A stretch of 64,000 nt of DNA from Leptolyngbyaceae cyanobacterium (lineage in GTDB: Bacteria > Cyanobacteriota > Cyanobacteriia > Cyanobacteriales > Aerosakkonemataceae), in assembly GCA_036703985.1 (NCBI GenBank), contig DATNQN010000010.1, positions 62,001 through 126,000 of the forward strand, given 5' to 3'. The notes beneath the pieces were generated by a model that saw only the letters and a program-made list of their open reading frames with translations, was not told the origin of the DNA and ran no database searches. Positions 25,857-30,346 of the stretch are shown in pieces. A program made the position numbers and the translations under genes. Every line of letters begins with the position of its first letter. Position 1 is the first letter of the stretch.

Positions 25857-26597
25857 TCACTCTTGCTCGATCGGGACTGGTAACTTCGCCAAATCGGGCA
25901 ATTTAACAATTTCTTTTTCCACTTCTTTAATAGTGACAGGCAATTGTAGAGGCTGAGGCTTTTCAACCCAACAGCTAGCGACTGGCAGAGTTTGCTCTAA
26001 GTCATCTAACGGTCTGGGAATCACCATTACGGCATTTAATTCCCCAATCCGTTCGGCTTCGTACATTCCCGCTTCTACAGCGACAGCTACGTCTGCCACA
26101 GCACCTCGAACGATCGCGGTACACAGACCGGCCCCGATCGTTTCGTAAGACGACAGATACACTTCTGCTGCCTTGAGCATAGCGTCGCAAGCTCCTACCA
26201 TTGCAGGAAATCCTCGCGTTTCCAAAAGACCGATCGCTAAATTGCTCAAGCGGCTGTGGCCCCCACTTTCAGCTAACTGAGCCAAGCGAGTGCCGATGGG
26301 AAGTACGGCTTCCAAGTTAGGTAAGGGTCTGGGAATCACTAAAGTGGACAGTAATTGGCCAAACTGTTTGGCAGTTTGAGCGCCAGCTTCCACAGCTAAA
26401 CGAACATCTGAAATATTACCTCGCACGATCGCCGTACAATGGCCGCTACCAATTTTCTCATACCCAACTAAAGCCACCCCAGCCGACTTGAGCATCATAT
26501 CAGCACATCCCACGATCGCGGGAAAACTGGAAGTAGATACCAAACCTAAAGCAGTGTCTGTAAAATCTCTTTGTCCCCTAGACGGTTGTAATTGCAT
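25857..26597 (-). CDS. ccmO: CcmO, tandem-BMC carboxysome shell protein
   Basis: A 246-residue shell protein with two bacterial-microcompartment domains. The first (about residues 12-98) contains ALGLVSTSSFPAIVGCADMM and KIGSGHCTAIVRG. The second (about 120-210) contains AIGLLETRGFPAMVGACDAM and TIGAGLCTAIVRG. Tandem-BMC proteins form pseudohexameric trimers; CcmO is required for the beta-carboxysome shell. A polar tail of about 35 residues follows. ATG 26597 has a strong GGAGG site. It is the last gene of the leftward ccm cluster, 78 bp after ccmN. A heptamer array in that spacer may affect co-expression. Confidence 0.96.
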   Translation of the reverse strand: MQLQPSRGQRDFTDTALGLVSTSSFPAIVGCADMMLKSAGVALVGYEKIGSGHCTAIVRGNISDVRLAVEAGAQTAKQFGQLLSTLVIPRPLPNLEAVLPIGTRLAQLAESGGHSRLSNLAIGLLETRGFPAMVGACDAMLKAAEVYLSSYETIGAGLCTAIVRGAVADVAVAVEAGMYEAERIGELNAVMVIPRPLDDLEQTLPVASCWVEKPQPLQLPVTIKEVEKEIVKLPDLAKLPVPIEQE

Positions 26598-26675: not shown

Positions 26676-27383
26676 CTAATCAGCATTCCCGTCTTGGTGT
26701 GGCCGCTTTAAGGTTTGATTATGGGGAAAAAGGGTCAGTAAAAGACGATTCAGATGAACTTGTCCGTAAAATTGGACGGGATTATCCTCCAAAGACTCGG
26801 GCTGATTTAAGTTAACAGGAGGTTCGCTAGCTGGTTGTGGGGGTGGGGCGGAAGTAGGAGGGTTCGGTTTGGGAGTAGAAACAGGTCGATCATTCGCTGG
26901 GATAGATTTCTCCTGGGTCTTGCTAGTGTAGGGCAGAATCCGAATCGTCGGCATCGCTGTTTGATTTTTTCCGGAAGCGGTAGCTGACTTAGACCGATCG
27001 ACTGTTTTCGGGGCAGGTGTTTCTGGAACGCGACGGCTTCGGTCTCCGATTAAAGAACCTGGGGGTACTACTTGCTTTGCCTCGATCGAACTCTGAAAAA
27101 TTGTGGTAGCTGAACCAATACAGGTATTTGCCCCAATTTTACCTTGGCCGAACACCAGCACGTTCGTACCCAAAATGACTCCAGCCTCAATTTCTAAAGT
27201 GCCTTCTCTAACTTCAAGAATTGAACCCATACCGATACAAACTCCAGCACCAATTATGATGCGGCTGTTGGTATCTGCTGTAATTACAACTCCCGATGCG
27301 ATCGTTGCACTTGGATCGATGGTGACATCGCCACTCACGAAAAACTGAAAGTCGCTACTAAGTTGCAGTGGCGGCAATTGCAT
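26676..27383 (-). CDS. ccmN: CcmN, carboxysome core-to-shell adaptor
   Basis: About 235 residues. Residues about 1-115 form a left-handed beta-helix of hexapeptide repeats (VTIDPSATIASGVVITAD; IGAGVCIGMGSILEV), the part that binds CcmM. A Pro/Ser-rich linker follows (TPKPNPPTSAPPPQPASEPP). The C-terminus holds the amphipathic encapsulation peptide VQFYGQVHLNRLLLTLFP, which in CcmN recruits shell protein CcmK2. The start is ATG 27383 (MQLPPLQ) with AGGTGA upstream; a GTG at 27395 is the longer alternative. It sits between ccmM and ccmO. The spacer upstream contains the G-rich and mirror-repeat tracts described separately. Confidence 0.94.
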   Translation of the reverse strand: MQLPPLQLSSDFQFFVSGDVTIDPSATIASGVVITADTNSRIIIGAGVCIGMGSILEVREGTLEIEAGVILGTNVLVFGQGKIGANTCIGSATTIFQSSIEAKQVVPPGSLIGDRSRRVPETPAPKTVDRSKSATASGKNQTAMPTIRILPYTSKTQEKSIPANDRPVSTPKPNPPTSAPPPQPASEPPVNLNQPESLEDNPVQFYGQVHLNRLLLTLFPHNQTLKRPHQDGNAD

Positions 27384-27419
27384 GAAATTTATCACCTCAT
27401 ACTGAGGAGTAGGGTGTAA

Positions 27420-27528: not shown

Positions 27529-29175
27529 TTAACGAGCGGCTGGTTGTTGAATGATTTGCTCGAGAACCCGGCGTTTGGCTTTGGGGTCGATCCCGATCAA
27601 ACGAACGTACTCTCCGGCGTGTTCGTTGATACAGCCTTCCAAAGCAGCAAACACTTCGGAAGCATTACTAGAAGATATCGGCGCACAAGTTTGCCAAGAA
27701 CCAGTGCGGAAGCGACGGGCATCTGCGTGTTCCATACCGATGCGGTATCCTTGAGACAGCAAAGAACGCACTTGTTCTTGCACGTCTGAATTCAAGCGAG
27801 TGTTAGACGCTGCCGACTGACTGTAGCCGTTGCTTTGAGGGGTTCGAGACGTGGATGTTGCCGCCACTGCCGCAGGCTTAGACATTTGAGCCACATTTCC
27901 ATCAGGACGTTGGATCAGTTGCTCCAATACGCGCCGCTTGGCTTTCGGATCGATACCGATCATGCGAACGTATTCTCCAGTATGACTATCGATACAATCT
28001 TCCAGGGCTTTCACTACTTCAGAAACTTGGTTGCTATCGATGGGGGAACAAGTTTGCCAAGAACTAGTGCGGAAGCGACGTTGGTCTGCGTGTTCCGTAC
28101 CGATGCGATAACCTTGAGCTAACAGAGAGCGGATTTGTTCGATCGTTTCCCCACTCAACTGACCGCTACTGACAGAACTGCCACCATTCGAGCTAGATTT
28201 AATCGAAGCAACTTTCGTCGGTTGGGGAGCTTGACCGCCGGGACGTTGGATAATCATTTCCAGCACGCGCCGCTTGGCTTTCGGGTCAATACCAATTAAA
28301 CGCACGTATTCCCCAGCGAACTCATCCAAATAAGCTTCTAAAGCAGAAACTACTTGCGATTGACTAGTCGCTTGGATCGTCGGGCCGCTTTGCCAAGAGC
28401 TAGTGCGGAAGCGCCGCTCATCTGCGTGTTCCGTGCTGATCCGATAGCCTTGTGCCAGCATCTGGCGGACTTGTTCGCTGACTTCTGGACTTAAACGCAT
28501 ACCTTTCACTTCACCATTAAGATTTTTAGAGCCGTTACTATGGCTAGGTTGTAATTCATCGCGGATTGGCGTTATGCAGGCAATGTCTTCAGCGCAGCGA
28601 TAGCCACTCCGCAAGGCATCATTGATGTGGATGATGTGGTTGGCAAATTCTTTATCTGATTCGCTCACATCTGGCAAGCGGTCAGCTTGTTGCTGGTTGG
28701 TGATGATCGACCCGGAAGGAATATATTTTCCTGGGGGAATTTCCACATCCTGGATCAGGACGTGCATCATCACGATACAGCCATCACCTACGCGGGCATT
28801 GAATACTGTAGAGCGAAAGCCAATAAAGCAACTATTTCCCACGTAAGCAGGGCCGTGAATTAAAGCCATGTGGGTAATAGAGGTATTTTCTCCAATCCAG
28901 ACGGAGTAGGAATCCCCATCATCTCCCACTACCCGACCTTGCTCTAAACCATGAATGACTACCCCATCTTGGACGTTCGTACTTTCGCCGATGTAGAAGG
29001 GAGATCCTTCATCTGCCCGAATCGAAGTGCCGGGAGCAACTAAAACATTTGCTCCGACCCGAACATCACCTATGATTCGTGAAAAGGAATGCACAAATGC
29101 TGTTGGATCGATTTTCGGTACGGCCAAACTACTCGACCAAGGGGTCGGAGGGGCAGCAGCGCTGCGGACTACCAT
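27529..29175 (-). CDS. ccmM: CcmM, gamma-carbonic-anhydrase/Rubisco scaffold with three SSUL domains
   Basis: A 548-residue organiser of the beta-carboxysome core. Residues 1-210 form a gamma-class carbonic anhydrase beta-helix with H75, H102 and H107 at the Zn-ligand positions, and C194 and C200 (RCAEDIAC) where active homologs form a regulatory disulfide. Three small-subunit-like (SSUL) domains follow (about 226-310, 345-430 and 465-545), each with GYRI, EHAD, RRFRT, WQ and [14 protein letters not shown]-type motifs; they bind and condense Rubisco. SSUL2 and SSUL3 carry paired cysteines (WQTC and LEDC/LEGC) that SSUL1 lacks. M226 is a candidate internal start for the short M35 form. ATG 29175 has an AAGAGGA site. 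Confidence 0.97.
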
Positions 29176-29303: not shown

Positions 29304-29606
29304 TTAGCGGTCTTGGTCTTTTTTGCTGTAAAGCTGGCGATTGTCAATACTTACGGTGTCAATAATTGCCACTACTAAAGCATCGAGCGGTCTTATTTCA
29401 TTGCCGGGAATTTGACGGGCGGCACTTCCACGGGTAACGAGTACCCACTCGTCTACTCCAGCACCCACGTTATCTGCTGCCACTTCATATTTGGGCAGCA
29501 GGTTTCCTTCCTCATTTATATATTGTACTAGGAGTAGTTTGGCTCCTCTGAGACTGGGTTCTTTGTGGGTACTGACGACAGTGCCGCGAACTTTGGCAAT
29601 TTGCAT
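29304..29606 (-). CDS. ccmL: CcmL, pentameric carboxysome vertex protein
   Basis: A 100-residue EutN/CcmL-family protein that caps the vertices of the icosahedral shell as pentamers. Its features are the N-terminal MQIAKVRGTVVSTHKEPSLR, LLLVQYI, the ADNVGAGVDEWVLVTRGSAA core and DALVVAIIDTVSI. Length matches the family. ATG 29606 follows the ccmK1 stop by only 2 bp, so the two are translationally linked in one leftward operon. Confidence 0.97.
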   Translation of the reverse strand: MQIAKVRGTVVSTHKEPSLRGAKLLLVQYINEEGNLLPKYEVAADNVGAGVDEWVLVTRGSAARQIPGNEIRPLDALVVAIIDTVSIDNRQLYSKKDQDR

Positions 29607-29608
29607 TA

Positions 29609-29950
29609 TTAAGGTCTGTTATATGGACGAATACCGCTTACGCTATCGCGAAATTGTTGCACTTCTTCGGTGTAGCGAATGGGCAGCACGTATTCCAAGT
29701 TTTCGTGAGGACGAGCAATGATGTGAGTGGAGAGGACTTGACCGCCGTTGACTCGCTTAACGGAATCAATTCCTGCCGCTACGGAAGCTTGTACTTCGGA
29801 AACATCTCCCCGAACGATTACGGTGACGCGACCGCTACCGATTTTTTCATATCCGACTAGGGTAACGCGAGCAGCTTTTACCATCGCATCTGCTGCTTCT
29901 ACGACTGCGGGAAAACCTAGTGTTTCGATCATGCCAACTGCAATTGCCAT
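29609..29950 (-). CDS. ccmK1: CcmK1, hexameric carboxysome shell protein
   Basis: A 113-residue BMC-domain protein that forms the flat hexameric facets of the shell. It has [20 protein letters not shown], the pore-lining [21 protein letters not shown] and the C-terminal [19 protein letters not shown]. The longer C-terminal tail and second position in the operon match CcmK1 in other beta-cyanobacteria, where K2 comes first. The start ATG 29950 has an AAGGA site. It is closely similar to the upstream ccmK2, a product of duplication. Confidence 0.93.
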
Positions 29951-30037: not shown

Positions 30038-30346
30038 TTAAGTACGGAACTGTTCGACCGCTTCTGTATAGCGAATGGGCAGTACGTATTCTAGGTTCTC
30101 ATGAGGACGGGCAATGATGTGAGTTGATAAAACTTCTCCTCCATTGACCCGCTTGGCTGCTTCTATTCCTGCCGAGACAGAAGCTTGTACTTCCGAAACG
30201 TCTCCTCGTACAATCACCGTTACCCGAGCGCTTCCGATTTTTTCATATCCGACCAGGGTGACCCGGGCTGCTTTTACCATCGCATCTGCTGCTTCCACAA
30301 CAGCCGGAAACCCTTTGGTTTCAATCATTCCCACAGCAATTGGCAT
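30038..30346 (-). CDS. ccmK2: CcmK2, major hexameric carboxysome shell protein
   Basis: A 102-residue BMC protein, first gene of the leftward ccm operon. The frame is open to 30460, but the true start is ATG 30346 (MPIAVGMIE), preceded by a TAGGAG site. The upstream codons do not resemble shell protein. Its pore loop is KIGSA where CcmK1 has KIGSG. Other landmarks are [20 protein letters not shown] and [19 protein letters not shown]. Length and operon position fit CcmK2, the shell protein that recruits the CcmN peptide. Its promoter must lie in the 667-bp divergent spacer. Confidence 0.94.

Follow-up and report, generated by a model that had tools for sequence, protein, structure and literature searches.

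The question raised by this locus was whether its CcmM protein is only a carboxysomal scaffold or is itself the carbonic anhydrase (CA) of the carboxysome, as the preliminary description of the DNA had proposed. In the accessible portions of the published reports, CcmM of T. elongatus is described as active as a CA (PMC13249358, PMC9120777; a further source for the findings on this protein is PMC9865033), and active CcmM gamma-CAs are given for both T. elongatus and Nostoc 7120, CcmM being the possible carboxysomal CA where CcaA is missing (PMC13249358, PMC9120777, PMC5472144). Here, ccmM was analyzed in the window, which is the whole stretch of 64,000 nt, and in the host genome, which comprises 7.68 Mb in 151 contigs and is listed as 100% complete.

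In the window, ccmM was found among two ccmK-type genes, ccmL, ccmN, and ccmO, which together make up one ccm gene cluster (Table 1). The ccmM product scored 827 bits with the NCBIfam model NF053794 (beta_CO2some_M), whose cut-off is 550, and its likeness to CcmM therefore reflects homology and not chance. Profile and PDB matches showed an N-terminal gamma-CA domain followed by three RbcS-like (SSUL) domains. The Cys pairs of SSUL2 and SSUL3 were kept (within positions 27538-28158), and none was present in SSUL1.

Table 1. Features of ccmM and of the neighboring ccm genes (positions in the window)
Feature	Position	Strand	Basis or remark
ccmM, 548 aa	27529..29175	-	ORF; NCBIfam NF053794; Pfam RuBisCO_small (three stretches) and Hexapep
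gamma-CA domain, residues 1-210	28546..29175	-	residues 1-209 align with 3KWC without gaps
Codon of His75, predicted Zn ligand	28951..28953	-	residue count and 3KWC alignment
Codon of His102, predicted Zn ligand	28870..28872	-	residue count and 3KWC alignment
Codon of His107, predicted Zn ligand	28855..28857	-	residue count and 3KWC alignment
Codon of Cys194, half of predicted redox disulfide	28594..28596	-	TGC; same number in 3KWC
Codon of Cys200, half of predicted redox disulfide	28576..28578	-	TGC; same number in 3KWC
SSUL1, about residues 229-314	28234..28491	-	matches to 6MR1 and 6HAS; without Cys pair
SSUL2, residues 340-428, Cys376/Cys394	27892..28158	-	match to 6HBA
SSUL3, residues 462-546, Cys497/Cys515	27538..27792	-	match to RbcS chain 6LRR
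ATG of Met226, between CA domain and SSUL1	28498..28500	-	candidate internal start of a putative short, M35-like form
ccmL	29304..29606	-	NF053795, 174.9 bits, above cut-off
ccmK-type BMC shell protein gene	29609..29950	-	Pfam BMC
Second ccmK-type BMC shell protein gene	30038..30346	-	ORF, start set at an internal ATG; by-eye likeness to the neighboring ccmK
ccmN	26676..27395	-	NF053793, 174.3 bits, above cut-off
ccmO	25857..26597	-	NF053792, 377.2 bits, above cut-off

The preliminary description had placed His residues at positions 75, 102, and 107 and Cys residues at 194 and 200. This numbering was correct, and the same numbers apply in 3KWC, the CcmM of T. elongatus. Residues 1-210 contain His at 29, 75, 102, 107, 138, 180, and 183 and Cys at 116, 133, 194, and 200. 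Residues 1-209 aligned with 3KWC without a gap (E 4.7e-108, 158 of 209 residues identical), and R53, D55, E56, N67, Q69, H75, W93, H102, H107, H138, C194, and C200 were identical in both residue and number. Substitution of another catalytic residue had been named as a finding that would speak against an active enzyme; R53, D55, E56, N67, and Q69, the non-His and non-Cys positions scored, which were chosen partly on the basis of the Cam and CcmM literature, all matched 3KWC. Thus, the CcmM of T. elongatus BP-1 (3KWC, 3KWD, and 3KWE) has the same domain, the same Zn-binding His residues, and the same Cys194/Cys200 pair, and the CA residues compared showed no difference. The protein also resembles, by description only, the CcmM of Nostoc sp. 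PCC 7120 and Anabaena variabilis, for which all residues thought to be needed are reported and a role as carboxysomal CA is proposed in the available text of PMC4046671. According to the same text, the CcaA-like gene of A. variabilis, Ava_2165, is barely transcribed, and the intact CcmM of that species has already been read as the carboxysomal CA.

The comparison with the CcmM domain of S. elongatus PCC 7942 (7O4Z and 7D6C) gave a different picture. The two domains share 114 of 188 aligned residues, including the three Zn-binding His residues, but in the S. elongatus domain Asn67 is replaced and Cys194 is missing. The stretch compared ends before position 200, and two almost identical sequences of the survey (G011 and G031) have no Cys at that position. 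This domain is reported to be inactive (PMC9120777), and its partner is a C2-tailed CcaA (PMC8580825), as far as the accessible text of these papers goes. The three Zn-binding His residues were therefore rejected as evidence of activity, since they are kept in this domain and also in 43 of the 54 main CcmM copies of the genomes with a C2-tailed CcaA that are described below. In the same 54 copies, N67 was kept in 22, the Cys pair in 11, and all ten scored residues in 9. The emphasis of the preliminary description on the Zn ligands was thus misplaced: as sequence markers of a putatively active enzyme, the Cys pair and N67 are more informative than the Zn ligands, which alone are weak evidence.

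A genome-wide search detected two beta-CAs, P0003 (230 aa) and a second protein (L002) of 237 aa. P0003 belongs to the CcaA clade. Its best PDB match was Synechocystis CcaA (5SWC, E 1.5e-87, aligned over residues 1-195), it matched Pfam Pro_CA, and the beta-CA motifs CSDSR and HSDC are retained, so that P0003 is probably an active CcaA-like enzyme. By its core it is of the same type as the CcaA proteins of Synechocystis (5SWC) and S. elongatus, but it lacks the C2 peptide. T. elongatus, in contrast, is reported to have no CcaA at all (PMC13249358, in the part available). The P0003 gene and the ccm cluster lie on different contigs. The P0003 gene adjoins a gene that by eye resembles an O-GlcNAc transferase gene, and such a neighbor recurs next to the tail-less CcaA-like gene in Argonema and Phormidium LEGE 05292, with 76-79% identity (L001, 6-2094; L275; L277).

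The L002 beta-CA, which was considered as a possible EcaB-type enzyme with an N-terminal export signal, carries the leader SRRNLIKFG, which by eye is twin-arginine-like, and its best PDB match was 2A5V. Its gene adjoins, on the same strand, a gene that by eye is NdhF-like (L002, 1486-3413), a neighbor that would fit a role of this CA beside a CO2-uptake NDH-1 complex. No alpha-CA was found in the genome, while S. elongatus was matched as the positive control. A genome search with CaMKII_AD, for iota-type CAs, gave no match with a model that may miss cyanobacterial iota-CAs, and no cyanobacterium was among the matching controls. The CsoSCA search was uninformative, since its controls gave no match either. 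A second, weak gamma-CA-like match, with 29% identity and E 4.9e-6, was located on a different contig. A second SSUL-bearing gene (L004, G000:C57:439773-440087), with an open frame of 450 aa and 61% identity to residues 319-425 of CcmM, was also observed; it may encode an SSUL-containing Rubisco activase.

The C2 peptide of S. elongatus CcaA is the 17-residue C-terminal segment with W257 and PEQQQRIY that binds the CcmM domain, and removal of the last 15 residues of the protein abolished condensation with CcmM, according to the portion of PMC8580825 available. We examined the C-terminus of P0003 and found no C2 peptide (..EQxxRIYRG) there, nor in any of the three frames downstream of the stop codon. 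No other convincing C2-tagged protein was found genome-wide: the pattern EQxxRIY gave two matches, one of which codes S for R, and the reversed control pattern also gave two. The remaining match was not accepted as a C2-tagged protein, because it falls within the ORF of an unrelated protein that by eye looks nucleotidyltransferase-like, and because the reversed pattern was equally frequent. The preliminary description had proposed a search for ccaA, and its outcome was mixed: a CcaA-clade gene is present, which at face value counts against CcmM as the carboxysomal CA, but the product has no C2 peptide, which counts in favor. At the eight positions of the C2-binding pocket, CcmM is identical to the S. 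elongatus protein at seven. The pocket is thus still present and gives no sign of lost docking. The pocket residues were also discarded as a predictor of CcaA docking, because seven of the eight positions were largely conserved in all three classes of genomes surveyed and the eighth (position 83) was variable in all of them.

The integrity of CcmM was then compared with the type of CcaA in 116 genomes sampled evenly across the class. CcmM was matched in 103 of them at E 1e-30, and a CcaA-clade protein in 66 at E 1e-25. When the main CcmM copy was scored (101 genomes), all ten residues were intact in 9 of the 54 genomes that carry a tailed CcaA, in 8 of the 8 whose CcaA-like proteins are all tail-less, and in 37 of the 39 without CcaA. 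For this table the long copy was scored where a genome has two CcmMs, and two genomes with CcmM fragments (G009 and G111) were dropped. When the best CcmM copy was scored (103 genomes), the numbers were 14 of 55, 8 of 8, and 37 of 40; here G009 counts as degenerate only through its CcmM fragment, and G111 was placed under no CcaA despite a broken CcaA-clade gene. The eight tail-less genomes include the genome of the window itself, leaving seven others, and among the eight the beta-CA ORF of G061 is truncated and that of G015 ends in ..SRLTPQEH, inside an apparent C2 start. The exceptions without CcaA and without an intact CcmM were G028 (H107Y) and G070 (a genome that is 68% complete). Fisher tests, in which ancestry is ignored, gave 3e-13 for the best-copy table, and 7e-17 and, within CcaA-bearing genomes, 7e-6. 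The nine tailed genomes with an intact main CcmM show that intact residues are no proof of sole use and that both enzymes can coexist.

Several genomes of the survey carried additional genes. In G022 (L103/L130), G082 (L106/L117), and G086 (L107/L140), a long CcmM with catalytic losses was accompanied by a short second CcmM with all ten residues; short satellite CcmMs are described in the accessible part of PMC5853843. G037, whose main CcmM is degenerate, has a second gamma-CA-like protein (L146, open frame of 247 aa, 41% identical). In G111 the CcaA-clade gene (G111:C40:10537-11126) is in two pieces with an internal stop, and the CcmM fragment of this genome retains the Cys pair.

We also inspected the best 80 named relatives, whose CA domains were 75-82% identical to that of the present CcmM and among the closest of which were Elainella saxicola, Cyanosarcina radialis, and Phormidium sp. 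LEGE 05292. In the 50 of the 80 loci that were checked for CcaA, a tailed CcaA was found in 14, only a tail-less one in 15, and none in 21, and CcmM was intact in all; second matches in G134, G139, G148, and G151 were left out of these counts, and G151 is tail-less on its first match alone. This set was rejected as a test of the association: all 80 are intact, but the query alignment had an intact CcmM at its head and only its 80 best matches were kept, so the sample is biased.

A recognizable C2 motif was present in 57 of the 77 CcaA-clade proteins from the survey and absent from 20. In a tree of 76 of them (G061_L192 was omitted), the 19 tail-less proteins fell into two groups, requiring 2 changes in comparison with a shuffled mean of 17.2. 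The larger clade, of 15 proteins including P0003, stands next to one tailed protein (from G037), and the smaller contains four. Tail-less and tailed CcaA occurred together in 11 surveyed genomes, nine of which involve the larger tail-less clade, and this coexistence suggests that the tail-less protein is a paralogue with a different role and not a replacement. A tail like that of P0003, roughly S.E(R/Q)C.I.A.H, was also found in Argonema, Scytonematopsis, Phormidium LEGE 05292, and Cyanosarcina (with T for S). Three CcaA-clade proteins of Xenococcaceae/Pleurocapsales (L296, L298, and L302) have a long alternative C-terminal region and were scored as C2-less, while L304, which ends in RIYRGG, was scored as tailed. 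L298 and L302 end near WARK(I/V)Y and not in the usual C2, L296 runs off its contig, and the tail of L302 matched only Pfam DUF948, below threshold.

Since many of the surveyed genomes are closely related, the association between CcmM integrity and tailed CcaA could be a matter of shared ancestry only, and then would say nothing about the present genome. Both traits are indeed clustered on the tree, with 16 and 18 changes, and RbcL is a single marker. Of 111 matched genomes, 90 were placed in the RbcL tree; the others lacked a CcmM match (12), were near-duplicates (8), or had only a partial RbcL (1). Both traits were available in 89. However, the RbcL DNA tree offered 10 independent pairs with a difference in tailed CcaA; of these, a mean of 6.4 went in the same direction, 0.0 in the opposite direction, and 3.6 showed no difference, and the sign test over 200 random pairings gave a median P of 0.0156 (range 0.0156-0.125). 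The reverse test on this tree gave 9 pairs, with 6.2 in the same direction, 0.0 in the opposite direction, and a median P of 0.0312; the RbcL protein tree yielded just 5 pairs, with 4.6 in the same direction (P = 0.0625). With no opposite pair on average, ancestry alone is a very unlikely explanation. When tailed and tail-less genomes were compared within those bearing any CcaA-clade protein, only 3 pairs were available, with 2.6 in the same and 0.0 in the opposite direction (P = 0.25). The tail itself as the cause of CcmM decay is therefore suggested but not established.

Two other explanations concern the enzymes themselves. In the first, P0003 is the true CA of the carboxysome and is brought there independently of C2, by way of its core, its 'SPEQCSICAQHEED' tail, or some other adaptor, while CcmM is intact only because its decay has not yet begun. 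The close match of P0003 to CcaA, its conserved catalytic motifs, the docking pocket kept by CcmM, and the recurrence of a similar tail in the four genera mentioned above are in line with this. We consider it unlikely, however, because the truncated S. elongatus CcaA did not condense with CcmM in the accessible text of PMC8580825, because most of the 19 tail-less proteins (15) form a clade that coexists with C2-tailed CcaA in nine genomes and so appears to have a separate job, and because the P0003 gene is found away from the ccm cluster, on a different contig, beside the O-GlcNAc-transferase-like gene, as in two relatives. It is also conceivable that CcmM is a catalytically silent scaffold in spite of its intact residues. 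Residue integrity does not equal activity, and the intactness of all 80 best named relatives may partly reflect structural constraint, though these are best matches to an intact query. But in 45 of 54 main copies from tailed-CcaA genomes at least one of the ten residues was lost while the domain persisted, which argues that these residues are not needed for scaffolding, and CcmM of T. elongatus, the nearest protein of solved structure, is reported to be active in the available parts of PMC13249358 and PMC9120777. A silent scaffold is therefore highly improbable.

Taken together, the present CcmM is likely both a scaffold and an oxidation-gated gamma-CA, and probably the main carboxysomal CA, because no CcaA able to dock on CcmM through a C2 tail was found in the genome. 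The proposal of the preliminary description is favored by the intact residues, by the lack of a detected C2-tailed CcaA, and by the association in the survey, while the existence of the CcaA-clade protein P0003 weighs against it. We infer Zn binding, CA activity, the redox switch, and the cellular role from the sequence. Related gamma-CAs are trimers with Zn at the subunit interface. The N-terminal domain of CcmM would accordingly form a trimer in which Zn is bound at the subunit interface through His75, His102, and His107, and the Zn-loaded domain would dehydrate bicarbonate. In the oxidized interior of the carboxysome, a Cys194-Cys200 disulfide would hold the C-terminal helix in place, whereas in the reducing cytosol the enzyme would be kept off; the three SSUL domains would bind Rubisco.

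A probable role of CcmM as the carboxysomal CA has already been reported for a few other species, and the present case is a further probable example. What appears modestly new is that the docking tail, rather than CcaA homology, goes with the decay of CcmM. In the titles and opening lines of abstracts of the literature searched, from which subscription journals are largely missing, no statement linking tail-less CcaA with intact CcmM was found. A broader rule, which we judge about equally likely to hold or to fail, is that a C2-tailed CcaA, and not any CcaA homologue, relaxes selection on the CcmM enzyme, that tail-less proteins are mostly separate paralogues with another job, and that genomes with only the tail-less type rely on CcmM.

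Free CA activity in the cytosol would be expected to short-circuit the concentration of CO2 by the cell, and as P0003 looks catalytically competent, its location in the cell is a real puzzle. For the carboxysome of this cyanobacterium, the sequence evidence indicates which enzyme, CcmM, probably feeds CO2 to Rubisco. If the broader rule is true, surveys based on homology alone would mis-assign the carboxysomal CA in tail-less species, and a testable guideline would be to look for the C2 tail and not merely for ccaA. Surveys in which ccaA is scored by its identity and coverage, such as that in PMC9120777 as far as its text is available, would in that case have to be split by tail, and a function would have to be sought for the tail-less CcaA-like enzymes.
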